41,287 nucleotides of DNA from NCBI GenBank assembly GCA_938074335.1, contig CALJEL010000010.1:1-41287 (forward strand), read 5' to 3'. The notes under the pieces were generated by a model, which worked only from the letters and a program-made list of their open reading frames with translations, was not told the origin of the DNA and searched no databases. The first letter of the stretch is position 1. The number at the start of each line of letters is the position of its first letter. Source of the stretch: an uncultured bacterium. Lineage in GTDB: Bacteria > Nitrospirota > Thermodesulfovibrionia > Thermodesulfovibrionales > CALJEL01. The position numbers and the translations under genes were made by a program. Of the stretch, positions 16,624 through 31,154 are shown piece by piece.

Positions 16624-17535
16624 ATGTTCAGGATAGGCCATCTATCAACCTTTTATCACACATCCATTCTTTTTCTAACTAAAAAGGAATTCATGGAGAG
16701 GCTTGGTGTTGAGTTAAGATGGAGGCTCTTTGGCACCGGCCCTGCGATAATTGATGCCTTTGACAAAAGAGAGATAGACCTTGCCTATTTAGGTCTAACA
16801 CCAGCTATAACTGGTATCGAAAGGGGTATACCAATTAAGTGCATAGCAGGTGGACATGTGGAGGGGACCGTGATATGTGGCTTAAATTCTCTTAAGGCTT
16901 ATCCTGAAATTGACCTTAAGGAATTTTTTCTTCAATTCAGGGGCAAGGTGATCGGAGTTCCTGCAAAGGGTTCGATCCATGATGTAATAATAAGAGGGTA
17001 TCTTGAGGAATCAGGTATCCTCCACATGGTAGAGATAAAGAACTTTCAATGGGCTGACCAGATCATTGAGGCAATGAAGAAGGGAGAGGTCTCCATAGCA
17101 GCTGGTACTCCAAATCTTGCCATAGCAGTAAAACGGTTTCTTGGCGGAAGGATTCTCTGGCCACCTGATAGACTATGGCCTTACAGCCCGAGTTACGGGA
17201 TACTGATAAGGACAGATGGTCCTCATGATGACAAATTCATAAGGGAATTTATTGGCCTTCATGAAGAGCTCTGTAATCTTTTAAGGGAAAAACCTCTTGA
17301 GGCATCTGAACTCATAGCATCCCTTGTCGGAGTGGTTGATGCAGACTTTATTTATGAGGCGATCCAGCTTTCTCCAAGATACTGTGCCTCCCTTCCAGAG
17401 GAGTATATCTCCTCCACACTCGGGCTCATGAAGGTTATGAAGAGGCTTGGTTATATTAACAGGGAATTTTCAAGGGATGAGATATTTGATGAAAGGTTTA
17501 TAAGGGAGCTTCATCAGGAGAAATCGCATTACTGA
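16624..17535 (+). CDS. Cytosolic NMT1/SsuA-like substrate-binding-fold protein
   Basis: About 303 residues of the type II periplasmic-binding fold: MFRIGHLSTFYHTSILFLTK, a DLAYLGLTPAITGIERG ligand-loop region and KVIGVPAKGSIHDVIIRGYLEESGI. These match nitrate/sulfonate/taurine ABC binding proteins. It has no signal peptide or lipobox, and no permease or ATPase gene lies nearby, so it is probably a soluble cytosolic protein. Its 3' end overlaps the 3' end of comDE on the other strand by 38 bases. Sulfonate-type binding proteins and the sulfonate chemistry of CoM synthesis make a link attractive but unproven. GTG 16609 is an alternative start; neither has a ribosome site. Confidence 0.75.
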   Translation: MFRIGHLSTFYHTSILFLTKKEFMERLGVELRWRLFGTGPAIIDAFDKREIDLAYLGLTPAITGIERGIPIKCIAGGHVEGTVICGLNSLKAYPEIDLKEFFLQFRGKVIGVPAKGSIHDVIIRGYLEESGILHMVEIKNFQWADQIIEAMKKGEVSIAAGTPNLAIAVKRFLGGRILWPPDRLWPYSPSYGILIRTDGPHDDKFIREFIGLHEELCNLLREKPLEASELIASLVGVVDADFIYEAIQLSPRYCASLPEEYISSTLGLMKVMKRLGYINREFSRDEIFDERFIRELHQEKSHY

Positions 17536-18649
17536 AATATTCCTTTATCTCTGAAGGAGGGAAGGGTATATCAGGGACTTCCTTATTACCTGGCAATGTA
17601 ACAGCATGGATGAATAAGGAGCCAGGGTATTTTTTATTTAATATCCTCCTCAAAAGCGCCTTTGAATAGACCTTAACTGTATGTTTAAAACCAAAGGCCC
17701 TTGCTATTGCCTCGAGGTTAATGAATCTTGAGGTGAGGGTGGGTTGATTGCCTGTGGAGCCATAGGCACCATTGTCAATTGCAACAATGATGAGGTTTTC
17801 TGGATTAAAAAATGCCACTGTCCCTAAAGAAGCTGGGTTCATAAGTATGCTTCCATCACCATCAATAACAATAACCCTCCTTTCAGTAAAAAGTGATATA
17901 CCAAGCCCCAGGGGAGTTGCCATCCCCATGCTACCAAGCATGTAAAAGTTAAGAGGTCTATGCCTTATGAAAAAGAGTTCTTTTGATGGTATCCCGAGGT
18001 TTGATACCACTATCTCATCCTTCAGCATTGATGCAATGGTCTTAATAAAATCAAAGCGCTGATATCTTATTAAGAGCCTGTTAACTGGCTTCACAGCCTT
18101 TACGCCTATACCTGCTACCTTTTGTCTTTTTATCCTTTGCTCCTTTTCCTTATGAAGCACTCCATCCCATATCTCAGGGCTCATGAGAAAGGCAGTGATC
18201 CTGTTTTTCTCATATGCCTCTGATAGCTTATGCCTCATGTGTTTAAGATCATCCTTTTTTTCAATTATCCTGTATTCAATACCGCAGCCATTGAGTATAC
18301 CCTGAAGGGACCTCCCCATCGGGATCTGAGCAGGGATCTTTTCATTATACACTCCCCTCCAGCTGACAAACAGGGCAAGGGGCAATTCATAGGTCTTTGT
18401 TAAAGACATAAGGGCATTCAGCATATTCCCCATACCTGAACTCTGAACAAAGAGTGCCGGCCTTTTACCTGCAAGGGCTGCACCAGCAGATATGCCAATC
18501 CCTTCCTCTTCCCTTGTAAGGGGGATATGTAAGAAGTTTTTTTCAATCAATGAAAGAAGATTCTTTATCTTTTCGCAGGGAAGGCTTAATACCGGATTTA
18601 TACCTGCTGATCTCAGTTCTTCTATGATTAACTCCTCAGATGTGTACAA
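17498..18649 (-). CDS. comDE: Sulfopyruvate decarboxylase, ComD-ComE fusion
   Basis: TPP enzyme converting sulfopyruvate to sulfoacetaldehyde in coenzyme M synthesis. The 383 residues contain the pyrimidine-binding half (about 1-170; activating glutamate in REEEGIG at 46-52, SWRGVYNEKIPAQIPMG) and the pyrophosphate-binding half (about 205-370; GDGSILMN at 264-271, IDNGAYGSTGNQPT). The halves are separate ComD and ComE in Methanocaldococcus but fused in Methanosarcina, as here. Phosphonopyruvate decarboxylase is the close alternative. The adjacent cysteate synthase and Hdr genes, and the lack of phosphonate genes, favour the CoM role. Start is TTG 18649 behind GAGGAGG, overlapping cysteate synthase by 22 bases. 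Confidence 0.88.
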   Translation of the reverse strand: MYTSEELIIEELRSAGINPVLSLPCEKIKNLLSLIEKNFLHIPLTREEEGIGISAGAALAGKRPALFVQSSGMGNMLNALMSLTKTYELPLALFVSWRGVYNEKIPAQIPMGRSLQGILNGCGIEYRIIEKKDDLKHMRHKLSEAYEKNRITAFLMSPEIWDGVLHKEKEQRIKRQKVAGIGVKAVKPVNRLLIRYQRFDFIKTIASMLKDEIVVSNLGIPSKELFFIRHRPLNFYMLGSMGMATPLGLGISLFTERRVIVIDGDGSILMNPASLGTVAFFNPENLIIVAIDNGAYGSTGNQPTLTSRFINLEAIARAFGFKHTVKVYSKALLRRILNKKYPGSLFIHAVTLPGNKEVPDIPFPPSEIKEYFSNAISPDEAPL

Positions 18650-19875
18650 AGGGCCTCCTCAATTTCCTCCTTCTGAGACCTCTTTGATATAAAAAGAGGT
18701 TTAACAGGATAGGTCCTGAAATCCCTTTTATATCTTTCCTCTCCACCTCCTGTTATATGAAGAAGTATGAGGTCCTCATTCCCCACGAGCTCATATCTTA
18801 CTGCCTGCCTGAGGCCTGCCAGGGCAGCACCACCTGCAGGCACTATATCAATACCTTCTGATTCAGCAAATAGTTCCATAGATGAATATATCTCATCGTT
18901 TGTCACACCATACATCTGCCCCTCTGTGGTCTCAAGGATATCATAAATCCCGCCTTTTACAGAATAGGCAGGATATCTACTGGAGAGGACCCTTGTGGAT
19001 ATCTTTTCTATTAAAGCAGGATCAACATCCTCAGGAGATATCTCCCGTGACCTCCTCTGCCATGCCCTTAACATTGGCACAAAGGGAAGGTTTTGAACAA
19101 GATGGAATCTTGGTAATTTCGTCCCGAATCTTCTTTCCCTTATAAGTCTCTCAGCCATTTCATAGACACCTATTGCTCCTGCACCACTTCCCACAGCCTG
19201 AAAATAGTGTTCAGGAAGTCTTCCAATGACTCTAACTGCTGAGAGAAGCACAGAGCCAAGGCCATCCCTCTTTGCAGGATTCTTCACACCTCCCTCAAAG
19301 GGCATACCTGTTATCTCCGAGATCCTTTTTGAAAGATCTATGGCATCAGCATAGTCTCCATCAATTACCACAAATGTAGCAGGATTACCATTCTCATGGA
19401 CATACCACATCTCCTTAAGACAGGCAAGGGGAACAACTATGATAACAGGAAAACCTGTAATAACAGAAAAATAGGCAAAGGCCCTTGCTGTATTTCCGGC
19501 TGAAGCCACAACAAAACCATTTATGCGGTTTTCTTTTGCATTTTCTATTACTGTAGCAACCTCTATTTCCTTGAAGGTGCATGTCCTTAACAGGCAGTTT
19601 CTTTCAGGCCAGTATCCGCTAAAGACTATATAGAGGTTTTTAAGCCCGAGTTTTTCTGAAAGTCCCTCTGATTTATAAACTACTGGTGTTCCTACATGGA
19701 TGGATGGATGGTGAACAGGAAGCCAGTTAAAACCCCAGAGGCCTTTATCTTCTTTTTTAAAAGGTTCGGTGTATTCAGTTATTACAAGTGAACCCTTACA
19801 GTGCTCGCAGAAGGCACAGTAGGAATCTTTCAATATCCTTCCACATCCCCTGCATCTTAATACAAAGTGGCTCAT
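18628..19875 (-). CDS. Cysteate synthase (threonine-synthase paralogue)
   Basis: PLP enzyme making L-cysteate from phosphoserine and sulfite, the first committed step of the Methanosarcinales CoM route. The 415 residues begin with a zinc-ribbon-like cysteine set (CRGCG, CAFCEHC). The PLP lysine context is TCTFKEIE (Lys102) rather than the threonine-synthase SFKDRG. SAGNTARAFAY, HYFQAVGSGAGAIGVYE and LVQNLPFVPM match what I recall of the Methanosarcina enzyme. The start overlaps the HdrD-like stop by four bases, and comDE follows with overlap. A plain threonine synthase is unlikely given the changed lysine motif and context. Confidence 0.85.
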   Translation of the reverse strand: MSHFVLRCRGCGRILKDSYCAFCEHCKGSLVITEYTEPFKKEDKGLWGFNWLPVHHPSIHVGTPVVYKSEGLSEKLGLKNLYIVFSGYWPERNCLLRTCTFKEIEVATVIENAKENRINGFVVASAGNTARAFAYFSVITGFPVIIVVPLACLKEMWYVHENGNPATFVVIDGDYADAIDLSKRISEITGMPFEGGVKNPAKRDGLGSVLLSAVRVIGRLPEHYFQAVGSGAGAIGVYEMAERLIRERRFGTKLPRFHLVQNLPFVPMLRAWQRRSREISPEDVDPALIEKISTRVLSSRYPAYSVKGGIYDILETTEGQMYGVTNDEIYSSMELFAESEGIDIVPAGGAALAGLRQAVRYELVGNEDLILLHITGGGEERYKRDFRTYPVKPLFISKRSQKEEIEEALCTHLRS

Positions 19876-21071
19876 ATAAGGCTTCCTATGAGTTCCATGA
19901 TATCAGTAATCCTTATTTGTTTTTCATAGCCTTCCATTGCCTCATGCATCTTTGAATAACAGGCAGGGCAGCTCAGTATCAGCCTGTCTGCACCTTTTTC
20001 TACAGCCTCATCAATGATGAGTCTGCCCATCTTTATGGCATTTTCATGAAAGACCTTTCTTGCTGCTCCACCTGCACCGCAACACTGAGAATAAAGACCA
20101 TGCCTTTCAAATTCAATCAGTTCTATATCAGGTATGCTTTTCAATACATACCTTGGCTCCTCTATCACACCCACTCCCCTGCTCAGATAACAGGGGTCAT
20201 GGTAGATAAGCCTCTCTTTGAGATGGTCTTTAATAATTAATCTTTTCTCCTTTATCGCCTCAGCAATAAACTGGCTTATGTGCCTGATCTTAAAGGGAAG
20301 GGGTCTTCCGTACAGAGATGGCCAGTCCCTTGCCATTATATTTACACAGCATGGACAGGAGCTGATAAGGAGCTTTACACCCCTTGTCTCATAGGCACTG
20401 ACAAGTCTCCTGACAAGGTCCTCAAGCATATCCCATTGTCCTGTTATGAAAAGGGGAAAACCACAACAGACTTCCTCTTCTGGTGGAAGCATGGTAAAGG
20501 CATAACCAGTTGCATGAAGTGCAAGGACATCTCCCCTTACCATGGGCTGTGCCTCATAACAGCCAGTACAGCCAGCATAATAGCCTATCTCTGCCCTTTC
20601 ATGAACCTTTATATGCTCGGGAAACCAGCTGAATCTCTCCTCTGGAGGTTTATTATATACATTTCCTGTTTTTTTCACAAACTCTGTCAGATTTGCCTGT
20701 GGACCTATAGGTCCAAGACCCATCTCCACCATCTTTCGCCTGAGCACAGGCCATAATCTCTGTGTAAATATCCCAACCTCGCAGGCCTCTCCACAGGCAC
20801 CACAGGTAGTGCATTCATAAACAGCCCTTACAAAGTCCTCAAGGAGTCTCCTGTCCACCTTGCCTCCTGTTATCCTGGCCTTGAGACCTTCTGTATTCTC
20901 TATGAACTCCCTGTAGAGCCTTATCTTCTCAGGAGGTGATATCTGCCTTCTTCCTGTTACCTCCTGTACAGGACACCATTTCAGGCATTCACTGCATCTT
21001 GTGCAGGCATCAAGTTCAACCAATTGCCTCTTAGAGAGGCCATGAGAAAAGGAAAATTTCCTCTCAGTCAT
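19872..21071 (-). CDS. hdrD: HdrD-like heterodisulfide reductase Fe-S subunit
   Basis: 399 residues from ATG 21071 (GGGAGG site); an upstream TTG/ATG-less extension is not needed. Two [4Fe-4S] ferredoxin motifs come first (CTRCSECLKWCP at 23-34; CTTCGACGEAC at 87-97). Two CCG domains follow: Cys168/171, CC202-203 and 239/241-242, then Cys294, CC330-331, 368/371. The second CCG domain is the kind that holds the noncubane cluster at the disulfide site. Size and order match Methanosarcina HdrD (about 400 residues) rather than the longer DsrK. It overlaps the cytochrome b gene by eight bases. Other CCG proteins (glycolate or lactate oxidase subunits) are possible, but the pairing and CoM genes favour HdrD. 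Confidence 0.82.
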   Translation of the reverse strand: MTERKFSFSHGLSKRQLVELDACTRCSECLKWCPVQEVTGRRQISPPEKIRLYREFIENTEGLKARITGGKVDRRLLEDFVRAVYECTTCGACGEACEVGIFTQRLWPVLRRKMVEMGLGPIGPQANLTEFVKKTGNVYNKPPEERFSWFPEHIKVHERAEIGYYAGCTGCYEAQPMVRGDVLALHATGYAFTMLPPEEEVCCGFPLFITGQWDMLEDLVRRLVSAYETRGVKLLISSCPCCVNIMARDWPSLYGRPLPFKIRHISQFIAEAIKEKRLIIKDHLKERLIYHDPCYLSRGVGVIEEPRYVLKSIPDIELIEFERHGLYSQCCGAGGAARKVFHENAIKMGRLIIDEAVEKGADRLILSCPACYSKMHEAMEGYEKQIRITDIMELIGSLI

Positions 21072-21858
21072 GGACAAATCCTCCCAATCTCTGGCTCCTG
21101 AGGAGGGCATCCTTTGTGGTTATCTGGGCAGCGAACATGTGAAACTGCTTGGAAAAGGGGATAAAGGCAATAAAAGAAAGTGCTGTCATAACATGAATAC
21201 ACCAGAAGACAATATAGGTCTTCGGACTGTTCACACCACTAAAGAGAGCTGCAAACAAAGCTCCAACCGGAGACCAATCCATAAAAGGTGGATCTGTCAG
21301 AGAAAGCCTGAGTCCTTCTACAGAAAAACCGCTCAGGACTATGATTATGAGGAGGACGAGCAAGGGCAGGTCATCCCATCCTGAGATGATATCCTCTGAC
21401 AGCCTGATCCTCCTTACAATAAAAAAGGCTGTGCCAGTAAATACTGCAAGACCCGCCAGATCGAGTATGAAGGAGAAGATCAGGTAAATGTATCCCTTAA
21501 GGATATTAAGTCTTAGATAATGGTCAAGACCAACCAGAATAGTTCCAATAAAGAGGATTGTAAATCCCCAGTAGATAAAGATGAGCATTATGCCCCTTAT
21601 CCTGCTTTTACTCATGACCCTTCTTGCCAGGAGGCACTCTTTAGAAAAGAAATATCTGAAGCTCAAAAGAAGCAGGCCTCCTAATCCCTTTCCTTCTAAA
21701 AGGTCATCAGGTTCATCCCTGCCCTTCAGCCATATAGAGAATCTTGAGTATAGGCCAGCTAAAAAGATCAACAAGGAAAGCAGAGATGATATGTAAAAGG
21801 CTATTTTCAGCAACCAGGGTATGTATATAAAGGCCTCACGAGACATATCAAACCTCAC
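21064..21858 (-). CDS. hdrE: HdrE-like membrane cytochrome b subunit
   Basis: 264 residues with about five membrane helices, NarI/DsrM/HdrE type. Candidate haem-ligand histidines lie in GLDHYLRLN and in the last span (CIHVMTALSFIAFIPFSKQFHMF). The size matches HdrE of Methanosarcina. It would pass electrons between a membrane quinone and the HdrD-like subunit encoded immediately downstream. The start overlaps the folD stop by four bases. In methanogens the partner is methanophenazine; in this bacterium a menaquinone is more plausible. Confidence 0.8.
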   Translation of the reverse strand: MRFDMSREAFIYIPWLLKIAFYISSLLSLLIFLAGLYSRFSIWLKGRDEPDDLLEGKGLGGLLLLSFRYFFSKECLLARRVMSKSRIRGIMLIFIYWGFTILFIGTILVGLDHYLRLNILKGYIYLIFSFILDLAGLAVFTGTAFFIVRRIRLSEDIISGWDDLPLLVLLIIIVLSGFSVEGLRLSLTDPPFMDWSPVGALFAALFSGVNSPKTYIVFWCIHVMTALSFIAFIPFSKQFHMFAAQITTKDALLRSQRLGGFVHD

Positions 21859-22787
21859 ATTGAACAGGGACTCTTCATCATCTCGGTTCTTATAGCGGAC
21901 CTGACAGTATTTTTAAGTAACATTGCAATTGTGACTGGTCCAACTCCGCCAGGAACAGGAGTGATGAAGGATGCTTTTTTTGAAACACTTTCAAAATCGA
22001 CATCTCCCACAATCTTTCCATTAGAAAGTACATTTATACCTATATCAACAACCACCGCTCCTTCTTTAATCATATCATCCTTTATAAGACCTGCAACACC
22101 TGTAGCAGAACAGATTATATCTGCCTGCTTTGTAAAAAATGAAAGGTTATAGGTCTCCTTATGGCATACCGTTACCGTTGCGTCCTTTGCAAGGAACATT
22201 AATGAAAGAGGCTTCCCAACGGTAAGGCTCTTTCCTATAACGACTACATGCTTCCCTTTAATTGGAATGTTGTAATATTCAAGAAGTCTGATTACACCAA
22301 AGGGTGTACAGGGAAGGAAACCGGTAATGAGTGGTTCATAGCTGTTTATTATCTCATCAGCTTTATTTCTAAAGAGTTGAAAGGTAGATTCATCAGCAGC
22401 AAGTCTACCCACTGATAGGGAGCCAAGACCGTCCACATCCTTGTCTGGTAATATTGAATTGATAACCCTTCTGGCGTTTATCCTTTTCGGCAGTGGTAAA
22501 AGGATCAGCAGACCGTGAATTCTCTCATCGTGATTTACAGAGTTAATTATGTTCAGTATCTCATTTAGGTTTACTTCTTCGGATAACCTGAATTCATATG
22601 GTATTATACCAACATTTTTGCACGCCATAAGGGTTGCTGAGAAATACTGCTTTGAGGCAGGATTCTCTCCTATAAGCATCAGACCAAGACCCACCTCAAT
22701 ACCCGATTCCTTAAGCCTCTTTACCTCATTTTTAACCTTATCCTTAATCTCTGCTGCAAGTCTTTTGCCATCCATTATTACTGCCAT
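21855..22787 (-). CDS. folD: Divergent FolD (methylene-H4F dehydrogenase; cyclohydrolase residues missing)
   Basis: 310 residues with the FolD fold: LIGENPASKQYFSA, KDVDG (Asp119 retained), PCTPFGVIRLL and the nucleotide loop VIGKSLTVGKPLS. Two residues essential for cyclohydrolase activity are changed. The lysine four after the active-site tyrosine is Thr52 (YFSAT), and the VQLPLP glutamine is Leu96 (LLPLP). There is also about a 20-residue insertion near 126-150. It probably only oxidises or reduces methylene-/methenyl-H4F. The ATG follows AAAGGAGG and overlaps the previous gene by 44 bases. A normal bifunctional folD may exist elsewhere in the genome. Confidence 0.88.
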   Translation of the reverse strand: MAVIMDGKRLAAEIKDKVKNEVKRLKESGIEVGLGLMLIGENPASKQYFSATLMACKNVGIIPYEFRLSEEVNLNEILNIINSVNHDERIHGLLILLPLPKRINARRVINSILPDKDVDGLGSLSVGRLAADESTFQLFRNKADEIINSYEPLITGFLPCTPFGVIRLLEYYNIPIKGKHVVVIGKSLTVGKPLSLMFLAKDATVTVCHKETYNLSFFTKQADIICSATGVAGLIKDDMIKEGAVVVDIGINVLSNGKIVGDVDFESVSKKASFITPVPGGVGPVTIAMLLKNTVRSAIRTEMMKSPCSM

Positions 22788-23106
22788 CCAGTGCCTCCTT
22801 TGTAAACCTGATACTCACATCTTTTGGGATGCATAGTCCTGCCTCGACCTCAAGGGTCTTCAATATGCCAGCAGGTACAGGACATGCCACATGCTTGAGA
22901 TGCAGAGCTGCTGCCTTATATACAGGGTTGTTGAGAAAATCTTTAAAGGCTATCATGATATCAAGGGTATCAATCTCTCTGGCCATTGCCATTACCATCT
23001 CACAGCCTGATTCAATCTTTATCTTTATTTTTCTGTCCTTAGCCTTCTCTGCTATAATTTCTGTTGAAAAACCACAGTTCCCGGCGAATACTATAACCCT
23101 GGTCAT
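22744..23106 (-). CDS. DUF6951-like small protein of corrinoid methyltransferase clusters
   Basis: 120 residues with features of a small family found beside MtrH/RACo genes: VFAGNCGFSTEIIAEK at the start, IKIESGCEMVMAMARE, and AALHLKHVACPVPAGILKTLEVEAGLCIPKDVSI. Conserved Cys/His (HLKHVACPVP) might bind metal. The function is unknown. It overlaps the RACo gene by four bases and folD by 44, so it is translated with them. Family naming is from memory. Confidence 0.65.
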   Translation of the reverse strand: MTRVIVFAGNCGFSTEIIAEKAKDRKIKIKIESGCEMVMAMAREIDTLDIMIAFKDFLNNPVYKAAALHLKHVACPVPAGILKTLEVEAGLCIPKDVSIRFTKEALDGSNNGWQKTCSRD

Positions 23107-25073
23107 TTGATCTCTACAGAATATGCTCTATCCTGAAGAAGGCTCTTCAGATTAGGAAAAGGATCCTTCATATGGGGTATATGCATGGCCTGCATGAACT
23201 CCTTCTGAAATTCTGGCTCAACGGCGATCTCAACAAATTCAACCCATCTTGCCTTCTCATCAGCCTCCTGTCTCTTTGACACATTGAGCAGGGCCATCCT
23301 TGCACCATCTCCGGCTGCATTACCAACCGCATAGACATTGTTTATATCACAATCAGGAAACATCCCCAGTGTTAAGGCAGACTCCTTATCAATGTAACTT
23401 CCAAAGGCACCTGCAAGGATCACCTTATCAACCCTCTCTATGCCCATCCTTTTCATTAATAGCTTTGCTCCAGCATAGAGAGCTGCCTTTGCAAGCTGTA
23501 CTGCCCTCACATCTGACTGTGTTATTGTGATATCCATTCCTATGGATGTTTCATTTGCCCAGGCTATTACATATTCAGGCATACCATCAGTACCTCTTCG
23601 TATCCTCGGGGTATTAAGATTCATATTGAACCTTCCTGTCTTATCGATTATACCAGCCTTAAAAATCTCGGCTACAGCATCTATGATACCTGAGCCACAT
23701 ATTCCCTTAGCATCTATCTTTTCAATATGGGTATGCCAGTCTGCCTTTCCAATTACCCTATATTCAGGTTCCTTTGTAACAGGGTCTATCCTTACCTTTT
23801 CAATAGCACCTGGTGCAGCCCTCATGCCGAATTTTATCTGGGCACCCTCAAAGGCAGGTCCTGTTGCGCAGGATGTGGAGCATACCTTCTTTTTGTTTCC
23901 AAGGAGCAGTTCACCATTTGTACCTATATCTATTATTAAAACAATCTCATCCATGTTATAGGGCTCTTCTGCAATGAGGACACCCACATTGTCAGCACCA
24001 ACAAACCCTGCCTCAATGGGAAGGACATGGATATAGGATGAAGGGTTGATTTTTATCCCTAAATCCCTTGCCTTTATGTTCAGCGAGTGCTGTACAGCAG
24101 GTATAAATGGTGATCTTCCTATGTATTCAGGATTGAATCCAAGGAATATATGGTGCATGGCTGTATTAAATACAACGGTCATGTCCACTATGGCATGACC
24201 GCCATCCCTTCCATCTACCCTTAGATCAGCAGAGACCTTTTCAATAATCTCATTCAATCCGTCAATAATTGCCTTCTGCATGATCTTCAAGCCTTCAGGG
24301 TTTGTCATGGCATAGGTTATCCTTGACATCACATCCTCTCCATAAGGGACCTGTGGGTTCATCATGGACTCGGTATTTATAACCTTTCCCGTGTTGAGGT
24401 CACAGAGATAGCCAACCACTGTGGTTGTTCCTATATCCACCGCAATCCCATAGGAGGCCTCCACAAAGCCAGGTTCTACCTTTATTATCTCCCTGTTCAT
24501 CCATACAGAGACCGTGATCTTCCACTCACCCCTTCTCATGATATCTTGAAGTTCTTTAAGAACAGGATAGTCGATCTGAAGGCCTGATAATCCATAATCT
24601 TCCTTCAGTTTCCTGAAGAGCCTTTCGGCATCTCCTTCTGTAAGATCATGAAGGGTAGGGGGTTCAAATTCAACAAAGTATTTCTTAACAGCTGGATTTA
24701 CAGGGATGGACAATTCTCTTGCTGCCTTTCTTACAACCTGTTTGCCTGCCCTTGACTTTTCAGGTACAAATATCTTTACATCTCCATAAATCTCTGCCTT
24801 GCAGGCAAGCCTTATGTTTGGGCCATCCTCTGGCTTTATAAATTTTCTTTCTACATCCAATAGAGGGCTGAGATGGGACATCCTTGACTCCAGTGCATCT
24901 TTTTCAAAATACCCTTCCTCTATCCTTACCTTACATTTACCGCAGGTACCCTTTCCTCCGCATATTGATTCTATGTCAACACCGAGCTGCCGGGCTGCAT
25001 CAAGCAATGTGGTACCACTTTGAACCTCACCTCTTCTACCTGATGGCTGGAATATCACCCTGTGTTTTGACAT
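23103..25073 (-). CDS. RACo-type reductive activator of corrinoid proteins
   Basis: ATP-dependent reactivase that reduces inactive Co(II) corrinoid to Co(I). From ATG 25073 (AAAGGAGG site) the protein has 656 residues. The N-terminal plant-type [2Fe-2S] ferredoxin domain has Cys38, Cys44, Cys47 and Cys91. A linker and a large ASKHA-fold domain (DUF4445) follow, with AVDIGTTTVVGYL, IIDIGTNGELLLGN and ILAGAFGSYID. It sits two genes after the corrinoid protein, its expected client. Electrons could come from the Fe-S protein encoded just before. Confidence 0.93.
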   Translation of the reverse strand: MSKHRVIFQPSGRRGEVQSGTTLLDAARQLGVDIESICGGKGTCGKCKVRIEEGYFEKDALESRMSHLSPLLDVERKFIKPEDGPNIRLACKAEIYGDVKIFVPEKSRAGKQVVRKAARELSIPVNPAVKKYFVEFEPPTLHDLTEGDAERLFRKLKEDYGLSGLQIDYPVLKELQDIMRRGEWKITVSVWMNREIIKVEPGFVEASYGIAVDIGTTTVVGYLCDLNTGKVINTESMMNPQVPYGEDVMSRITYAMTNPEGLKIMQKAIIDGLNEIIEKVSADLRVDGRDGGHAIVDMTVVFNTAMHHIFLGFNPEYIGRSPFIPAVQHSLNIKARDLGIKINPSSYIHVLPIEAGFVGADNVGVLIAEEPYNMDEIVLIIDIGTNGELLLGNKKKVCSTSCATGPAFEGAQIKFGMRAAPGAIEKVRIDPVTKEPEYRVIGKADWHTHIEKIDAKGICGSGIIDAVAEIFKAGIIDKTGRFNMNLNTPRIRRGTDGMPEYVIAWANETSIGMDITITQSDVRAVQLAKAALYAGAKLLMKRMGIERVDKVILAGAFGSYIDKESALTLGMFPDCDINNVYAVGNAAGDGARMALLNVSKRQEADEKARWVEFVEIAVEPEFQKEFMQAMHIPHMKDPFPNLKSLLQDRAYSVEIK

Positions 25074-25765
25074 ACATAAACCTCCTTTAAAATCTTTCTT
25101 CCGAAGGGGCATATATTTATACAGAGCCCGCAGTTTGGTTTACCTGATATAGTTTTTCTTGATCTTCTATATTCCTCACATCTTTTAATATCAACAAGTT
25201 CCTCATAGGGCCTATCGATTGACCAGTCCTTTTCATTTATCGCATTAGCAGGGCAGTACCGGACACAGAGAAAACAACTTCCACAGAGTCCTTTTTCTAT
25301 GGGGCTACCAGGCTCAAAGGGTGCATCTGTCAGAACAGTGGCAAGCGAGAGCCTTGGACCATACTGAGGATTTATGAAAAGCCCATTTCTACCTATCCAG
25401 CCAAGTCCTGAACAGGTTGCAGCAATCTTATGGGTAAAAAGGCCATAAAGCCTTGAGATGAATTTATCCGATCTCTTTGAAGAATCAGGAGGTATGGCAA
25501 GGTATCTGAATCCCCTTTTTCTTAAAAAGAGTGTTACCACCTTTTGAAGGTCTTCAAGTATCTCTATGGTCCTGTCAGTAAGCCTTCTGTTTAGCCCTAT
25601 TGAAACAGCCTTTTTTAGATGGGCGATATCTCCCTTTACAACCATGCTTACATCAGCAAAACCCACCACAGTGGCGCCGAGACTTATCAGAAGCTCTTTA
25701 AGCTCATGGTTAAGGGATTCCATATTGTGGTTTTCTCTATTCACTGACAGCCTTTGCCTCTGCAT
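25055..25765 (-). CDS. QueG-like double [4Fe-4S] protein
   Basis: Up to 236 residues. The C-terminal half is a two-cluster ferredoxin domain (CGSCFLCVRYCPANAI and CGLCINICPFGRKIL). The middle matches epoxyqueuosine-reductase-like proteins (GLGWIGRNGLFINPQYGPRLSLATVLTD). It is much shorter than QueG and lies between the corrinoid protein and RACo genes, so a role in feeding electrons to, or protecting, the corrinoid is more likely than tRNA modification. The start is uncertain: ATG 25765 overlaps the corrinoid gene and its ribosome site is too close, while ATG 25723 has none. Confidence 0.75.
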   Translation of the reverse strand: MQRQRLSVNRENHNMESLNHELKELLISLGATVVGFADVSMVVKGDIAHLKKAVSIGLNRRLTDRTIEILEDLQKVVTLFLRKRGFRYLAIPPDSSKRSDKFISRLYGLFTHKIAATCSGLGWIGRNGLFINPQYGPRLSLATVLTDAPFEPGSPIEKGLCGSCFLCVRYCPANAINEKDWSIDRPYEELVDIKRCEEYRRSRKTISGKPNCGLCINICPFGRKILKEVYVCQNTG

Positions 25766-26432
25766 CTTCCTTTAATTTTTTAAGTGCGCTTATCATGTTG
25801 ATTGCCTCTTTCAGGGCATTGCTTGCATCCTTTGCATATCCATCAGCTCCCCACTTTTCAGCAATATCATGGGATACCGGGGCGCCTCCAATCATGATCT
25901 TTGCCTTTGGATTTCTCTTTTTTATCTCATCAATAACCTTTTTCATACCAACCATGGTCGTTGTCATCATGGCAGAAAGACAGACAAGATCTGCATCAGT
26001 GCGGAGCTGTTCTTCAACAAACCTGTCAAGAGGTACATCCCTTCCAAGGTCATAGACAGTAAAACCAGCAACATCAAACATCATCTTCACGATATTCTTT
26101 CCAATATCATGGACATCTCCCTCTACAGTTCCTATTACCACAGTGCCTTTTATACCAAGGTCAAGCTTTTTCATATGGGGTTTCAGGATATCAAGACCTG
26201 CATAAAGGGCATCGGCGCACATGAGGAGCTCAGGAACAAAATATTCCTGTCTTTCAAAGAGCCTTCCAACCTCCTCCATACCTGAAACAAGTCCATTAAA
26301 TATAGCCTCTGCTGGATCAAGGCCAGCCTCAAGGGCCTCCTTTGCTGCATCCCTTGCACCGTCTTCATCATAATTGATTACGGCCCTTTTCAGTTTTTCA
26401 AGTATCTCCTTCTTTTTTTCTTCGTCTATCAT
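25737..26432 (-). CDS. Methyltransferase corrinoid protein (MtaC/MtbC family)
   Basis: Carries the methyl group on a cobamide. The 231 residues comprise a four-helix cap (about 1-90) and a B12-binding Rossmann domain with the lower-ligand motif D106-x-H108-x-x-G111 (GTVEGDVHDIGKNIV) and GGAPVSHDIAEKWGADGYA. It starts four bases inside the end of the methyltransferase gene (ATGA). It is the only corrinoid protein in the window, so both UroD-type proteins and the MtrH-like protein probably act on it. Confidence 0.95.
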   Translation of the reverse strand: MIDEEKKKEILEKLKRAVINYDEDGARDAAKEALEAGLDPAEAIFNGLVSGMEEVGRLFERQEYFVPELLMCADALYAGLDILKPHMKKLDLGIKGTVVIGTVEGDVHDIGKNIVKMMFDVAGFTVYDLGRDVPLDRFVEEQLRTDADLVCLSAMMTTTMVGMKKVIDEIKKRNPKAKIMIGGAPVSHDIAEKWGADGYAKDASNALKEAINMISALKKLKEDAEAKAVSE

Positions 26433-27469
26433 GACCTATCCCCTCCTTTGTAATTCTTTATCTCTTCCATCATGGCATGGAAGTTTTCCGGTGGTATGGT
26501 TGGCCAGATGTCACATCCAGGCCAGATGGCACTTGCTCCATCGTCAATGCACTTCCTTACAGCCTCCCTTACCTTTTCAGTGGTGCCCTGGACAAGGATA
26601 TTGTATGGATCAAGATTTCCGAATATGAGGGCATCTTTTCCAAGTGTTTTTCTTGATTCAGCCAGGTCATTTTTCTGATCAACACTGATAGCTGTTGCTC
26701 CTGTCTCTATCATAAACTGCACTATCTGATTGGTCTTCCCGCATATATGCAAGACCGATGGAATGGTTATTCTTGATATGACCTTAATGAGGGGCTTTTG
26801 AATGAGATTCTTGAATACCCTCGGACTCAGGACATCAGAGGTCGCACCCATCTCCCTTACGGTAAGGTAGTCCAATCCTGCATCTATAAGTTCCTCTGCC
26901 ACCATAATAATGGCATCAGCAAGGAGGTCAAGAAGAAGGCTCACCTTATCAGGTTTTTTAAAGGAGAGCTTTAATAATTCATTCAGGTCCATTACCTGAC
27001 CTGCAAGTGTAAAGGGTCCAAGCACATAGGAGCCAATAGCCACCTCGTTACCCACCCGGTTTTTGGCTATCTTTATAGCCTCTACAAGAAGAGGGATCCT
27101 ACCCTTTTTCTTGAGATCATCAGGTATGGTAATCTCCATTTCCTGCTCTGAGTTAATTAATTTTTTCTTTATGGTTGGATAAAGAATACCTTCTGAGTGG
27201 GCATACACATTTATCTCGCATCCCAGGGCCTCTGCCTCTATACACAGGTCAAAGGGAAGGACCGCACATTCGAAACCGAATAGTTCATAGGTTGATGCAG
27301 AGGCCTCTGCCATCTTTTTTGCATCAAGGTGTATATCTGCAAATCTGTGACCCATCTTTTTAAGTGCATATTCAGTCACATTTCCCATTCCACTGAAACA
27401 GGGAATTCTGTCAACCTCCTTTTTCTGAAAAAGATTTAAAACCCGTTCTTTCGGAGATATTGTGCTCAT
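26429..27469 (-). CDS. UroD-superfamily methyltransferase 1 (MtaA/MtbA-like)
   Basis: 346-residue TIM-barrel protein. The thiol-activating zinc ligands of MtaA/MtbA are all visible: His241 and Cys243 in LHICGKT and Cys319 in WPGCDIWP (MtbA uses His239, Cys241, Cys316). Such enzymes transfer methyl between a corrinoid and coenzyme M. Related bacterial UroD proteins are O-demethylases acting on methoxy substrates, so substrate-side activity is also possible. It is flanked by MtrH-like and corrinoid genes, both with four-base overlaps. With CoM synthesis encoded in the same train, a methylcobamide:CoM role is reasonable. Confidence 0.88.
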   Translation of the reverse strand: MSTISPKERVLNLFQKKEVDRIPCFSGMGNVTEYALKKMGHRFADIHLDAKKMAEASASTYELFGFECAVLPFDLCIEAEALGCEINVYAHSEGILYPTIKKKLINSEQEMEITIPDDLKKKGRIPLLVEAIKIAKNRVGNEVAIGSYVLGPFTLAGQVMDLNELLKLSFKKPDKVSLLLDLLADAIIMVAEELIDAGLDYLTVREMGATSDVLSPRVFKNLIQKPLIKVISRITIPSVLHICGKTNQIVQFMIETGATAISVDQKNDLAESRKTLGKDALIFGNLDPYNILVQGTTEKVREAVRKCIDDGASAIWPGCDIWPTIPPENFHAMMEEIKNYKGGDRS

Positions 27470-28449
27470 ACTGCCTCCTTTACTCTTCGTGCCTTTGCAC
27501 CTGAGATAAGTTTTTCCACAAACTCATTGAAATAAAGTTTTATAGGCAGGGAAGGATTTTCCAGGACACTATTCCTTTCATGATAAACAAGGGTGCTGAG
27601 AAGAATATGGGCTGTTGCTACAGCATGGAATATCCTTGGTGCATTCACAATCGGTCCGTAGAAATTGAAATCACTCCAGAGGTTAGAGGCTATTGCCTGA
27701 GCTACTGCATCCATTACCCTGAATCCTTCTATTCCCCATTTATCCTTTATCTCCTTCCACATGTTGGTACCATTGGAATAGGCACCTCCAGCTGGAAGGC
27801 CATATTTTTCTTTGATCAGTCTGTTGGCTATCAAAGAAAAGGATGTGGCAGGAAGGTTCATTACAGATGTATCCACAAGGATTGTATCGAACTGGTCAGC
27901 ACCCTGAGAAAGTATATAATCCAGTGACTTTAATCTTCCATAAGGGGTCTGATCAGTATCATCGAAGACCTGTATTACCACATGTCTTATTCCCAGGTCC
28001 TTCAGCCTCTGGACCTGTGCCTTTATGTCCTTATCCCAGGGTGTTATGCTGTTGTAAAGAAATTTATCCTGAAGCCCGAGTTTTGCAATGTATTCAGTTG
28101 TCTTTATCCTTTTTTCAGCTACCCACATATCTATTCCAAAGGGCATATCTGTAGTCTCAAGATAAAAATCTATGTATATCTTTGCCTCTTCAGGTGTATT
28201 TGCAACCATCGCAACCATGGACGGGATACCGGTAATACTGGAGAGTTCCTCCTGTCTCTTAATGAGCTCACGGGCTCTCTGGCGGTCAAAATTGCCCTTT
28301 CTATCCTGAAGTAATCTGTCTTTGTTATGAAACATAGAGGCAATCAATAAAGGTGGATTTTCTCCTGGCTGACCGCCTACCTTGATATTCCCTATAGTAA
28401 AGACCTTCTGTTCTGTTTTAAATGTAAAGATATCCTTTCTTTCTTCCAC
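27466..28449 (-). CDS. MtrH-like methyl-tetrahydrofolate:corrinoid methyltransferase
   Basis: About 327 residues of the MtrH family: FTIGNIKVGGQPGENPPLLI, FDRQRARELI, the substrate-site region YNSITPWDKDI and KEKYGLPAGGAYSNGTNMW. In bacteria such proteins move methyl between corrinoid and tetrahydrofolate, which agrees with metF and folD in the same cluster. I prefer GTG 28449, which has GAGGTG four bases upstream, to ATG 28479. The latter lies inside the loop of a GC-rich hairpin, has no ribosome site and would add ten atypical residues. It ends with a four-base overlap into the UroD gene. Confidence 0.88.
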   Translation of the reverse strand: MEERKDIFTFKTEQKVFTIGNIKVGGQPGENPPLLIASMFHNKDRLLQDRKGNFDRQRARELIKRQEELSSITGIPSMVAMVANTPEEAKIYIDFYLETTDMPFGIDMWVAEKRIKTTEYIAKLGLQDKFLYNSITPWDKDIKAQVQRLKDLGIRHVVIQVFDDTDQTPYGRLKSLDYILSQGADQFDTILVDTSVMNLPATSFSLIANRLIKEKYGLPAGGAYSNGTNMWKEIKDKWGIEGFRVMDAVAQAIASNLWSDFNFYGPIVNAPRIFHAVATAHILLSTLVYHERNSVLENPSLPIKLYFNEFVEKLISGAKARRVKEAV

Positions 28450-28469
28450 TTTACACCTCACGATTTTTT

Positions 28470-28488
28470 GGGGCGGCATAGCCGCCCC
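28470..28488. other. GC-rich hairpin between the AhpD-like and MtrH-like genes
   Basis: GGGGCGGC and GCCGCCCC form a perfect eight-base stem around ATA. On the minus transcript it is followed by A residues rather than U, so it is not a terminator for the operon. It may mark mRNA processing or set relative expression of the downstream genes. Confidence 0.55.
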
Positions 28489-28493: not shown

Positions 28494-28937
28494 TTAATGG
28501 ATGCCGTGATCGAACTTTGGTTGAGGTAGATATTCCCAGGGTTCACCCTTTATTACCTTCTGGGCAATCTCAACGCACTTTACCGCATATTCAAAAGCAT
28601 AAGGTATGCCTGGACCATTTGGAACGAATCCGGCAAGTATTGTACCTATGGCTGCAGCCTCAAAGACCTCCTCAACAGTTGCACCAGCCTTTACAGCAGG
28701 AACCACATGAACAATGCACCTTGGAGACATGTAGGCAACACCACCTGCCATGAAGATCAATTCCTTGATCTTCCTTGAAAGGGCTCCATCCTTCCAGAGG
28801 GATTCATAAAAGTCTGCAAAGGTCTTTCCTGCCTCAGGATTTAATTGATTGATGATCTTGAACATCCTCGGAAGGAAGAGCATATGTTCTTCCATGTACT
28901 TATTGGCCTCTTCCGGGGTTAATTTCTTTTCTGCCAT
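28494..28937 (-). CDS. Carboxymuconolactone decarboxylase/AhpD-like protein
   Basis: 147 residues, all-helical CMD fold, with the segment LIFMAGGVAYMSPRCIVHVVPAV. AhpD-type proteins use a CxxC...H thiol site; here it reads S-P-R-C-x-x-H, so one cysteine is serine and a disulfide cannot form within the motif. The start follows GGGAGGT. It lies between the two methyltransferase groups. Role unknown; a thiol or peroxide function beside CoM-thiol chemistry is only a suggestion. Confidence 0.8.
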   Translation of the reverse strand: MAEKKLTPEEANKYMEEHMLFLPRMFKIINQLNPEAGKTFADFYESLWKDGALSRKIKELIFMAGGVAYMSPRCIVHVVPAVKAGATVEEVFEAAAIGTILAGFVPNGPGIPYAFEYAVKCVEIAQKVIKGEPWEYLPQPKFDHGIH

Positions 28938-28981
28938 CGTTACCTCCCAATAAGGAAATTAGAGGATCCAAAGGATCCCTT

Positions 28982-30010
28982 TTATAATCTCCAGTTTCTG
29001 GCAGTCTCGATGAACCTCTGAATGTTTTCATATGGTACTGTTGGAGGTATATCACAGCCTGGCATGAGGACAAATCCTCCATCAGTACCAGCTATTTCTA
29101 TAATCTCCTTACATGTCCTCTCCACATCCTCAACTGTGCCTTGAAGCATTATCTTTACAGGATCAACATTTCCGGCAAAGCACATCCTGCCATGGAGTAT
29201 CTCCTTTGCCTTTTTTATATCAGTCTTATGATCAAGGCTTATGCAGCTTGCACCTGTGAAGGGAAAGAGGTCGAGCCTGTCTGTGGTATTTCCACAGATA
29301 TGGACAAGTGTATGGACATTCTTTGACCTCGCCCAGTCAGTAAATTTCTTAAGATAGGGAAGTGCAAATCTTTCAAACTGTGTTTTTGATATCAGGTCTC
29401 CTGAGGCAGTGGGATCAGCAAGGCTTATAACTTCTAATGTGCCATCCTCCACAAGGGGCTTATAGAGATGAATCAGGAGTTCTGTTGCGAAGTTAACGAC
29501 CTTTTCCACAAAGGCAGGTTTTTTGAAGGTGGCCTTCATCATTGGTTCCTCTCCAATGAGCCTTGCACCAAGGGTAAAGGGACCCCAGGCAGTCATGGTT
29601 ACAACATATTCATCACCAATCTTTGATTTTGTAAATTTCAGGGCCTCCTTGATGGTACTAATAACATCATGTCTGTCGACGGAGCTGATATCAAGCCTTG
29701 AAAGGTCTTCTTCTGATGAGATAATAGGTGCCTCGAGATCAGGTGCCCCGATCTCCCTGAATTTTATGCTTCCACCAAGGGCAGCGGCATGGAAATTATT
29801 GTAACCTGAACCGCAATAGACTATGTCAGCTCTCAATTTGTCTGCCATCTTAACGAGCATGTCAGTCATCTTCCGGGCATCTGTTGAAAGTTCCTTGAAA
29901 GTAGTGCCATAGTTATGGATACTCCACATCCCGCCACCAAAGAGGGTAACAGGCACCCTCTCTGGCTTTCCTCCCTCAAAGGCCTTAAATATAATCTCCT
30001 TTGGCTTCAT
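28982..30010 (-). CDS. UroD-superfamily methyltransferase 2 (MtaA/MtbA-like)
   Basis: 342 residues, clearly paralogous to the protein at 26429 but diverged. Zinc ligands are His237 and Cys239 in VHICGNT and Cys319 in MPGCDIPP. The N-terminal region, which forms the substrate funnel, differs most (TLFGGGMWSIHNYG, YCGSGYNNFHAAALGG), suggesting a different methyl donor or acceptor. It is the first gene behind the sigma54 promoter at 30060-30075, with ribosome site AAAGGAG. In a two-enzyme scheme, one UroD protein would load the corrinoid from the growth substrate and the other would face CoM; which is which cannot be read here. Confidence 0.86.
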   Translation of the reverse strand: MKPKEIIFKAFEGGKPERVPVTLFGGGMWSIHNYGTTFKELSTDARKMTDMLVKMADKLRADIVYCGSGYNNFHAAALGGSIKFREIGAPDLEAPIISSEEDLSRLDISSVDRHDVISTIKEALKFTKSKIGDEYVVTMTAWGPFTLGARLIGEEPMMKATFKKPAFVEKVVNFATELLIHLYKPLVEDGTLEVISLADPTASGDLISKTQFERFALPYLKKFTDWARSKNVHTLVHICGNTTDRLDLFPFTGASCISLDHKTDIKKAKEILHGRMCFAGNVDPVKIMLQGTVEDVERTCKEIIEIAGTDGGFVLMPGCDIPPTVPYENIQRFIETARNWRL

Positions 30011-30059
30011 CTTGAACTCCTTTTTAAAATTGTTTATAAAGAGTTACATTATCACTTCA

Positions 30060-30075
30060 GCAACATTTATGCCAG
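30060..30075 (-). promoter_or_regulatory. Sigma54 promoter of the methyltransferase/CoM operon
   Basis: On the minus strand: TGGCAT-AAATG-TTGCT, with GG at 30073-30072 and GC at 30061-30060, ten bases apart. Predicted start near 30048, leaving about 38 bases of leader containing the AAAGGAG site of the first gene. It matches the elements at 11158 and 31139 in both hexamers. Confidence 0.75.
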
Positions 30076-30076
30076 C

Positions 30077-30093
30077 TTTTATGATTCATAAAA
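30077..30093. promoter_or_regulatory. 17-bp palindrome touching the -24 element
   Basis: TTTTATGA-T-TCATAAAA is a perfect inverted repeat, centred about 12 bases upstream of the -24 GG on the minus strand. A direct repeat of AAAAAGCTATTT follows (30093-30104 and 30113-30124). The palindrome could be an operator or activator site. Sites this close to -24 more often repress or bind an auxiliary factor than serve as classical enhancers. Confidence 0.45.
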
Positions 30094-30156
30094 AAAAGCT
30101 ATTTATTGATTTAAAAAGCTATTTTTCGGAAGGCCTCAAGATTGGCAAATTTTTAT

Positions 30157-30195
30157 TGAGTAAAAATTCCCCTGAGGATGGGGAATTTTTACTCA
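30157..30195. terminator. 16-bp perfect hairpin between metF and the methyltransferase operon
   Basis: TGAGTAAAAATTCCCC (30157-30172) pairs perfectly with GGGGAATTTTTACTCA (30180-30195), loop TGAGGAT. It lies 38 bases past the metF stop, before the next sigma54 promoter. There is no separate U-run beyond the stem on the minus strand, so terminator, attenuator and mRNA-stabiliser are all possible. It suggests that metF has its own transcript with some read-through. Confidence 0.6.
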
Positions 30196-30232
30196 GCTCC
30201 TGAAATTAGAAATGGCAAAGAAAGCAAATATC

Positions 30233-31096
30233 TTAGGTGCCTATAACCTTAACTATAGAGCTTACCATATCAGATTTATTAAGTGTATAAAAATGAAAGA
30301 ATCTCACCCCATTATTACGAAGATCAGTGCATTGTTTTATGGCTATCTCTATTCCTATCTTCTTCATTTCTTCCGGGTTATCCTGGTAGGGTTCCATCTT
30401 TTTAATGATTGAATCAGGTATTGTGGCCTTGCAAAAGCTTGCAAATTCTATTATTTTTTTGATATCTCCAATGGGCATTATGCCTGGTATGATCGGTATA
30501 TTAATTCCTGCCCTTTCGGCCCTTTCCATAAACTGGTAAAAATACTTATTATCAAAAAACATCTGTGTTATGGCAAAGTCAGCTCCCTCATCAATCTTTT
30601 TCTTTGTGTATTCCATGTCCTTTTCAAGACTGGGTGATTCCTGATGTCCTTCAGGATAGACAGCCACGGCAATAGAAAAAAAATTATATCTCTTTATGAA
30701 TCTTATAAGATCTATCGCATATTTAAACTCACCCTTCAGAGGGTCAAAATCAGGAACCCCCCTGGGAGGATCTCCCCTTAGAGCAAGGATGTTATCCACA
30801 CCAATAGACATATAGCTTCTGAGAAGCTCATCTATAGCCTTTTGAGTTGCTCCTATACAGGTCAGGTGTGACATTACTGTAAGATCTGTCTCTTCTCTTA
30901 ACCATTTCAGTGTGCGATAGGTTCTATCCTGAGTTGTTCCTCCAGCACCATAGGTCACAGATACATACAAAGGATTAAAGGCACTGAGGTCCCTGATTAC
31001 AGCCAGAAAGCTATCCTTTCCCTCCTCGGACTTGGGGGGAAAGAATTCAAAGGAAATACCTCTACCTTTTTCTTTCAGGATATCTCTTATGAGCAT
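30233..31096 (-). CDS. metF: Methylene-tetrahydrofolate reductase
   Basis: FAD enzyme interconverting methylene- and methyl-tetrahydrofolate. The 287 residues show the family signatures: FEFFPPKSEEG, VSVTYGAGGTTQDRT, HLTCIGAT, ILALRGDPPRG and IPGIMPI. Ribosome site AAGGAGGAG. It is the first gene after the sigma54 regulator gene and has its own sigma54 promoter. Linked with an MtrH-like enzyme and corrinoid protein, it probably serves methyl-group oxidation or Wood-Ljungdahl flux rather than, or in addition to, methionine synthesis. No MetV-type partner gene is present nearby. Confidence 0.95.
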   Translation of the reverse strand: MLIRDILKEKGRGISFEFFPPKSEEGKDSFLAVIRDLSAFNPLYVSVTYGAGGTTQDRTYRTLKWLREETDLTVMSHLTCIGATQKAIDELLRSYMSIGVDNILALRGDPPRGVPDFDPLKGEFKYAIDLIRFIKRYNFFSIAVAVYPEGHQESPSLEKDMEYTKKKIDEGADFAITQMFFDNKYFYQFMERAERAGINIPIIPGIMPIGDIKKIIEFASFCKATIPDSIIKKMEPYQDNPEEMKKIGIEIAIKQCTDLRNNGVRFFHFYTLNKSDMVSSIVKVIGT

Positions 31097-31138
31097 TTGT
31101 CGCTCCTCCTTTTGTTTAAGGTCTTATTGCTATTTTTA

Positions 31139-31154
31139 GCAAAAATAATGCCAT
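31139..31154 (-). promoter_or_regulatory. Sigma54 promoter of metF
   Basis: On the minus strand: TGGCAT-TATTT-TTGCT, with GG at 31152-31151 and GC at 31140-31139, ten bases apart. The predicted start is near 31128, about 32 bases before the metF ATG. It lies directly downstream of the sigma54 regulator gene ending at 31188. Confidence 0.72.

Follow-up and report, generated by a model that had tools for sequence, protein, structure and literature searches.

A conserved Nitrospirota operon joining genes assigned to coenzyme M synthesis with corrinoid methyltransferases and an HdrD-type protein

Gene content of the operon

The window analysed here is the whole 41,287-nucleotide stretch of contig CALJEL010000010.1, which belongs to a 2.22 Mb genome (listed completeness 100%) of a Thermodesulfovibrionia-type member of the Nitrospirota. 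It carries an operon in which genes assigned to coenzyme M (CoM) synthesis stand next to a module for corrinoid-dependent methyl transfer, and the two parts are inherited together in the phylum. An initial annotation, made from the letters alone, had described fourteen minus-strand genes at this place. A check of the open reading frames verified all 14 at positions 17498–31096 of the window, and matches to hidden Markov models (HMMs) confirmed the described content. Gene families were assigned with the NCBIfam and Pfam HMMs and judged against curated cut-offs (Table 1). Cysteate synthase, the fused sulfopyruvate decarboxylase ComDE, the corrinoid protein, RACo, the MtrH-like and MtaA-like proteins, MetF, FolD, and HdrD were recognised as listed in that annotation, whereas HdrE was weakly recognised and the second UroD-family protein (UroD2) fell below all curated cut-offs. 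Three core genes had been left unnamed, namely those for a double 4Fe-4S protein, a CMD/AhpD-like protein, and a DUF6951 protein; a further partner of the operon, designated c3, lies outside the coordinates first reported.

The cysteate route of CoM synthesis, proposed in the initial annotation, was supported by the curated cut-offs and by a cysteate synthase tree. The same annotation had named threonine synthase and phosphonopyruvate decarboxylase as identities that would speak against it. The threonine synthase models failed on the pyridoxal phosphate (PLP) protein (at most 90 bits), and the phosphonopyruvate decarboxylase model was below its cut-off on the thiamine pyrophosphate (TPP) protein (212.8 vs. 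312.5). With TIGR03845, ComDE scored 197.9 against a cut-off of 147.95, and its GDG...N TPP-type motif was invariant in 41 sequences. A targeted search for ComA-like PF04029 found none in the source genome, which fits the cysteate route; the phosphoenolpyruvate-dependent ComA route was thus rejected. In the tree, the Nitrospirota cysteate synthases formed a clade with a support of 100. Recent transfer from methanogens was unsupported, as these sequences form one separate deep clade; a single Thermoplasmata row that joins the clade carries a risk of long-branch attraction.

MtaA1 was assigned with NF004889, the “methylcobalamin:coenzyme M methyltransferase” subfamily model, which was matched by 16/16 members at E ≤ 1e-30. 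It aligned over its full length with MtaA of Methanosarcina mazei (PDB 4AY7) and was below the MtaA-specific and MtbA-specific equivalog cut-offs. The PDB matches of the MtrH-like protein were 8z9u (MtrH) and 6sj8, the methylcorrinoid:tetrahydrofolate (THF) methyltransferase of Desulfitobacterium (D. hafniense). In the corrinoid protein, D106-x-H108 of the DxHxxG motif was invariant; the 2Fe-2S cysteines of RACo were conserved, and the double 4Fe-4S protein had eight invariant cysteines across 31 sequences. Every cysteine of the two 4Fe-4S and two CCG motifs of HdrD was invariant in 39 sequences. The CMD/AhpD-like protein (66–90% identity across the phylum) has a single conserved cysteine in place of CxxC.

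Contamination by an archaeal contig was ruled out by the bacterial flanking genes argG, dapF, and lysA and by the presence of the operon in single-contig genomes (L049/G150; L089, CP070788; L091, CP070737).

Table 1. Coordinates of the operon genes and associated features in the window, with the basis of each assignment.
Feature	Position	Strand	Basis
c3, cytosolic TauA/SsuA-fold protein	16609..17535	+	Convergent to ComDE; co-occurrence with operon
ComDE, fused sulfopyruvate decarboxylase alpha + beta	17498..18649	-	TIGR03845 and TIGR03846 over cut-off
Cysteate synthase (PLP; phosphoserine + sulfite to cysteate)	18628..19875	-	TIGR03844, 449 bits vs. cut-off 325
HdrD-like Fe-S protein, two 4Fe-4S and two CCG non-cubane motifs	19872..21110	-	TfrB best NCBIfam model, 184.8 bits; Pfam CCG x2
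HdrE-like membrane subunit, about 5–6 transmembrane segments	21064..21858	-	Weak QmoC match, 35 bits; conserved His222, His240
FolD, accessory	21855..22787	-	Pfam THF_DHG_CYH; in 8/40 relatives' loci
DUF6951 protein	22744..23106	-	PF22263, 106 bits; three invariant Cys
RACo, reductive activator of corrinoid protein	23103..25112	-	Pfam RACo_linker, middle, C_ter
Double 4Fe-4S protein, QueG/RDH C-terminal-like	25055..25765	-	Fer4_16
Corrinoid protein, MtbC/MtgC-like	25737..26432	-	TIGR02370, 216.9 vs. cut-off 215.3
MtaA1, methylcorrinoid:CoM methyltransferase-like	26429..27469	-	NF004889, 280 bits vs. cut-off 244; also passes TIGR01463
MtrH/MtgA-like methylcorrinoid:THF methyltransferase	27466..28479	-	NF002142, 342 vs. 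cut-off 287
CMD/AhpD-like protein	28494..28937	-	Pfam CMD; conserved Cys74 with His77
UroD2, MtaA/CmuA-family enzyme, proposed substrate S-demethylase	28982..30010	-	Family match and zinc motif
Sigma-54-like site TGGCAT-N5-TTGC before UroD2	30060..30074	-	1 mismatch, 64 bp before start codon
MetF, accessory	30233..31096	-	TIGR00676 over cut-off; in 5/30 complete relatives' loci
Sigma-54-like site TGGCAT-N5-TTGC before MetF	31139..31153	-	1 mismatch, 57 bp before start codon
NtrC-type sigma-54 response regulator	31188..32522	-	Response_reg, Sigma54_activat, HTH_8
Histidine kinase with GAF and PAS domains	32500..34581	-	Pfam; same neighbourhood in relatives

Gene order and joint inheritance in the phylum

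A profile search detected cysteate synthase above its cut-off in 59 of 396 genomes sampled from the phylum. The named matches were Nitrospirota metagenome-assembled genomes (MAGs), among them records labelled “Thermodesulfovibrionia” or “Nitrospiraceae”; two were chromosomes (CP070788 and CP070737). For the comparison of gene order, up to 20 kb around cysteate synthase was taken from the loci of 40 relatives, and the window proteins were mapped onto them. The order UroD2-CMD-MtrH-MtaA1-corrinoid-FeS-RACo-DUF6951-(FolD)-(membrane subunit)-HdrD-CysteS-ComDE, for which the initial annotation had proposed a search in other genomes, was kept on one strand in 30 of the 40 loci. Seven of the remaining loci end at contig edges, and three, all of family f12 (L042, L044, and L058), are rearranged: there, the CoM genes are physically apart from the rest, with both sets still in the genome. 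ComDE accompanied cysteate synthase in all 40 fetched loci, and in all complete loci the MtrH-like gene was kept and the CMD/AhpD-like gene was adjacent to UroD2. The oxidation branch through MetF and FolD that the initial annotation had drawn falls outside this conserved core (Table 1).

Co-occurrence was analysed in 78 genomes with a completeness of 90% or more; cysteate synthase was present in 41 of them and absent from 37. DUF6951 and UroD2 were each present in 41/41 genomes with the enzyme and in 0/37 without it (Fisher p = 4e-23 in both cases, a value that overstates independence, the genomes being related). The score gap for UroD2 was wide, with 588–680 bits where the operon is present vs. 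no more than 132 bits where it is absent. More telling than the p-value is the finding that nine families hold both states, operon present and operon absent, and that all of them are concordant. The methyltransferase module and the CoM genes thus come and go together, in an all-or-none fashion. In relatives too, the CoM genes therefore belong to the unit as a fixed part, a point on which the initial annotation had made its reading depend, and this indicates that CoM synthesis is not incidental to it.

Several observations on individual genomes were made alongside. Genome G221 (98% complete), congeneric with the operon-bearing G320 and G374, keeps the TauA-fold gene and is without cysteate synthase, UroD2, and DUF6951, owing to recent loss or a missing contig. 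In L099, an uncultured Nitrospirae MAG, a second UroD2-like gene (63% identity) is located downstream of ComDE on the opposite strand, with a FeS-like gene (30% identity) nearby. Recurrent neighbours of the operon (clusters c1, c2, c4, and c5) comprised a receiver-like small protein, c1, upstream of UroD2 (22 loci), a protein of ~190 aa beside the TauA-fold gene (14 loci), a CobW-type GTPase (9 loci), and an OsmC-like protein (8 loci).

A histidine kinase and response regulator pair lies directly upstream of the operon in the window and beside it in about 8 relatives; the NtrC-type regulator is probably dedicated to the operon. The sigma-54-like site before UroD2 reached at least 9/10 in 6 of 46 loci, compared with 1.7% of shuffles; outside the window it is clear in only a few relatives, because in many of them the c1 gene intervenes. 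Window-wide, such sites were marginally above chance (41 found vs. 31.6 expected with two mismatches), and the two listed in Table 1 are credible because of their position and the neighbouring sigma-54 activator. No riboswitches were found by an Rfam scan. On the plus strand nearby, genes at 7051–8160, 11252–12277, and 14273–15685 encode homologues of YeeE/TsuA-type (thiosulfate) transporters and a 3-mercaptopyruvate sulfurtransferase-like rhodanese, so that sulfur genes adjoin the operon.

Predicted methyl exchange and coenzyme M metabolism

The zinc ligands of the two UroD-family enzymes, His241-Cys243...Cys319 in MtaA1 and His237-Cys239...Cys319 in UroD2, were invariant in 16/16 aligned members of each. 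In this superfamily, a His-Cys-Cys zinc set marks S- and Se-methyltransferases, whereas O-demethylases replace the zinc cysteines by carboxylates or non-ligands (PMC10418091). The motifs thus favour S- (or Se-) over O-methyl chemistry for both enzymes. The alternative given in the initial annotation was a methoxy-demethylation system in which CoM is incidental. On this reading, the operon would serve O-demethylation of methoxylated aromatics of the Mto/Mtv type, and the MtrH-like protein, the corrinoid protein, RACo, and the UroD-family methyltransferases do recall the Mto operon (PMC8630106). However, the MtoB enzymes have 47–48 kDa (PMC8630106) vs. 342 residues in UroD2, the set never occurs without the CoM genes, and the all-or-none pattern together with the invariant His-Cys-Cys makes this explanation very improbable.

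The same zinc set is also found in clusters for the salvage of methyl-selenium or methyl-sulfur compounds. Two MtaA-like enzymes with His-Cys-Cys, one corrinoid protein, and a RACE protein fit the description of the type 1 mlp kind (PMC10418091), in which case CoM would act as the thiol that accepts the methyl group for disposal. SelD was present in 78/78 genomes, usually with an in-frame TGA. However, it was present equally in genomes without the operon, so selenium fails to explain the pattern, and the association was discarded as uninformative. In addition, a THF methyltransferase is missing from type 1 clusters and conserved here, and HdrD with a membrane cytochrome would be unneeded for salvage alone; we therefore regard such a salvage function as improbable. 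As an observation in its own right, the occurrence of SelD, nearly always with the in-frame TGA, in all 78 Nitrospirota genomes suggests widespread selenocysteine use in the class.

In the reading that we favour, corrinoid methyl transfer with self-made CoM, the single corrinoid protein would serve as a methyl hub, kept active by RACo and probably by the 4Fe-4S protein. The methyl group would be exchanged with a methylated thiol (or selenol) by UroD2, with CoM by MtaA1, and with THF by the MtrH-like protein; from THF it would enter the Wood-Ljungdahl pathway or be oxidised. Given a single corrinoid protein, one folate enzyme, and two enzymes of the thiol type, a three-way exchange of methyl groups linking a methylated thiol, CoM, and THF would be the simplest scheme; the S-methyl substrate and the direction of flow are inferred. 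ACS was found in 75/78 genomes, so methyl-THF would have an outlet; as it occurred with or without the operon, ACS is uninformative as an explanation of the inheritance pattern.

CoM would be formed in four steps. Cysteate synthase would convert phosphoserine and sulfite to cysteate, a general aminotransferase would yield sulfopyruvate, ComDE would release sulfoacetaldehyde, and sulfur insertion, through sulfide chemistry or a new enzyme, would complete CoM. In Methanosarcina, COG1900/MMP16 is established as the CoM synthase (PMC12068725). The initial annotation had advised looking for the last CoM-forming enzyme in the full genome; this known one (PF01837) was absent from 59/59 operon genomes, with positive controls, and was rejected as the final step. 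Therefore, the last step would be an uncatalysed sulfide reaction or the work of a new enzyme, for which c3 and DUF6951 are candidates. Sulfide and sulfoacetaldehyde do form CoM in vitro without an enzyme (PMC12068725).

The c3 gene was present with a high score in 39/41 operon genomes vs. 1/37 others, though often on a different contig. The protein has no signal peptide and no N-terminal membrane segment, and many of its histidines and cysteines are invariant. The top matches of its AlphaFold model (pLDDT 86) were the taurine-binding TauA and the alkanesulfonate-binding SsuA, followed by the cofactor-forming enzyme Thi5; TauA was also matched by sequence profile. Orthologues were identified in the CoM-making Methanoperedens and Methanolobus (401 and 379 bits); Odoribacter, WOR-3, and Aminicenantes, where cysteate synthase occurs in the absence of ComDE, had none. 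In Methanolobus, c3 adjoins CysDNH-, sulfite reductase-, and ThiS/ThiF-like genes, as identified by eye from the sequences. Thus, c3 may bind or make a C2 sulfonate of the CoM pathway.

In DUF6951, C11, C35, and C75 were invariant in members from both domains, archaeal ones included. Among 14 control genomes, the protein was detected in Methanosarcina acetivorans only. It was also found in Methanolobus and Methanohalophilus, several of the loci lying near corrinoid proteins or UroD methyltransferases, and was not found in Methanoperedens, Methanothrix, or Methanoregula. Outside Nitrospirota, DUF6951 as found here is limited to methylotrophic CoM-using methanogens. Its sequence profile had no match in the PDB, and its structural model gave weak fold matches (E about 0.2) dominated by sulfur acceptors of the IscU/SufU/SufE type. 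A role in sulfur delivery or Fe-S metabolism may be taken as a lead rather than a result.

By way of sulfoacetaldehyde or cysteate, cysteate synthase and ComDE could also supply another sulfonate in place of CoM, such as taurine, isethionate, or a sulfonolipid, with the methyltransferases using another thiol. The absence of MMP16/COG1900 and the taurine/sulfonate-binding fold of c3 agree with such a product, as does cysteate synthase without ComDE in Bacteroidales, WOR-3, and Aminicenantes; the Bacteroidales enzyme probably serves sulfonolipids. However, ComDE always occurred together with cysteate synthase in the fetched loci, the Bacteroidota and Nitrospirota cysteate synthases formed separate clades, and inheritance was all-or-none with an MtaA-type CoM methyltransferase and DUF6951. 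In addition, sulfide can produce CoM non-enzymatically from sulfoacetaldehyde in vitro (PMC12068725). We consider a non-CoM sulfonate unlikely.

HdrD and a membrane cytochrome b would couple the CoM disulfide to the quinone pool. The window shares its HdrE-like subunit with a few relatives; 32 of the 40 relatives have an unrelated-looking NarI-like membrane cytochrome with four conserved histidines. Two loci (L064 and L086) carry an extra HdrD and HdrE-like gene in tandem. In nearly all loci, HdrD adjoins cysteate synthase and ComDE, also in those that show no other part of the operon. This arrangement would suit a role of CoM mainly as a small-molecule thiol buffer, with its disulfide recycled by HdrD and the cytochrome and with the methyltransferases only loosely related; moreover, CoM overproduction shields Methanosarcina from oxidative stress (PMC12713407). 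However, inheritance of UroD2, MtaA1, MtrH, and DUF6951 strictly follows that of the CoM genes, and same-family relatives have no member of the set, an unusual distribution for a general redox buffer. The probability of a mainly buffering role is accordingly low.

The initial annotation had reported no methyl-CoM reductase (MCR) and had suggested a genome-wide check. This was borne out: the MCR alpha subunit (PF02249) was found in 0/59 operon genomes, while the Methanoperedens positive control was matched.

Taken together, these results make it fairly probable that the operon is a bacterial corrinoid methyl-transfer system using self-made CoM. Several points weigh against this interpretation. 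Without MCR, the CoM disulfide for HdrD would have to come from some other reaction; the best PDB match of HdrD is merely a generic iron-sulfur reductase, and HdrD-type proteins serve many other redox systems. UroD2 scored below every curated cut-off (184.5 vs. 235.4 for TIGR01463; 173.8 vs. 244), and the beta-subunit model of ComDE was passed narrowly (TIGR03846, 224.4 vs. 221.5). Given the lack of MMP16, CoM is a putative end product. A more far-reaching proposal, which we regard as possible but doubtful, is that these Nitrospirota have a full CoM economy without MCR. In such an economy, a new final enzyme (c3 and/or DUF6951) would complete the cysteate route, methyl-CoM would be an exchangeable pool of methyl groups linking the Wood-Ljungdahl folate branch to a methylated-sulfur substrate, and the CoM disulfide would be respired via HdrD and cytochrome b.

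Significance and comparison with known systems

CoM, a carrier of methyl groups known above all from methanogenic archaea, is seen as an archaeal alkane/methane cofactor that also takes part in a rare bacterial epoxide pathway. The results presented here, from a group of uncultured Nitrospirota of the subsurface, suggest that bacteria without the methane-making enzyme use CoM in one-carbon metabolism. If this is true, CoM metabolism would be a trait shared by bacteria and archaea and not tied to MCR or epoxide degradation. A conserved operon, widespread in anaerobic bacteria, would uncouple CoM from MCR and show where CoM methyl transfer can be investigated, or may once have operated, in the absence of methanogenesis. 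It would also imply an unrecognised methyl sink, probably for methyl-sulfur, in subsurface sediments. With c3 and DUF6951, two concrete candidates are available for the missing CoM-related functions, and CoM production in these bacteria is directly testable.

No description of CoM synthesis in Nitrospirota was found in the open-licence PMC literature. The nearest described systems are the type 1 mlp clusters (Kountz and Balskus, PMC10418091), which likewise occur in anaerobes and contain two or three MtaA-like His-Cys-Cys enzymes, one corrinoid protein, and one Ram/RACE protein. The clusters examined had neither a THF methyltransferase nor a conserved gene order, whereas the operon conserves MtrH, CoM synthesis, HdrD with a cytochrome, DUF6951, and a strict order; the main text of that study is silent on CoM biosynthesis and Nitrospirota (PMC10418091). 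With type 2 archaeal CoM biosynthesis (Methanosarcina: cysteate synthase, ComDE, and MMP16), the operon shares cysteate synthase, a fused ComDE, and the lack of ComA. It differs in having no MMP16/COG1900, in its separate cysteate synthase clade, and in the joining of these genes to a methyltransferase operon.

The alkene/epoxide pathway of the Xanthobacter and Haliea type is another case of CoM in bacteria. However, that pathway starts at phosphoenolpyruvate via ComA (PMC12068725), whereas the host of the operon has no ComA and the genetic context is corrinoid methyl transfer. The Mto/Mtv/MtgBC demethylation systems have in common with the operon an MtrH-like corrinoid:folate methyltransferase, a corrinoid protein, and RACo, but they are without CoM synthesis, an MtaA-type enzyme, and HdrD, and their substrate enzyme is of another type; MtoA has been demonstrated to work with folate and not with CoM (PMC8630106). 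Finally, the methanogen MtaABC/MtbA and HdrDE systems also combine CoM, an MtaA-type CoM methyltransferase, and HdrD with a membrane cytochrome; in contrast to them, the operon has no MCR, and a bacterial folate MtrH branch replaces tetrahydromethanopterin. The operon is best placed among the corrinoid methyltransferase operons, from which it is set apart by its own genes assigned to CoM synthesis and by a putative disulfide-reductase module.

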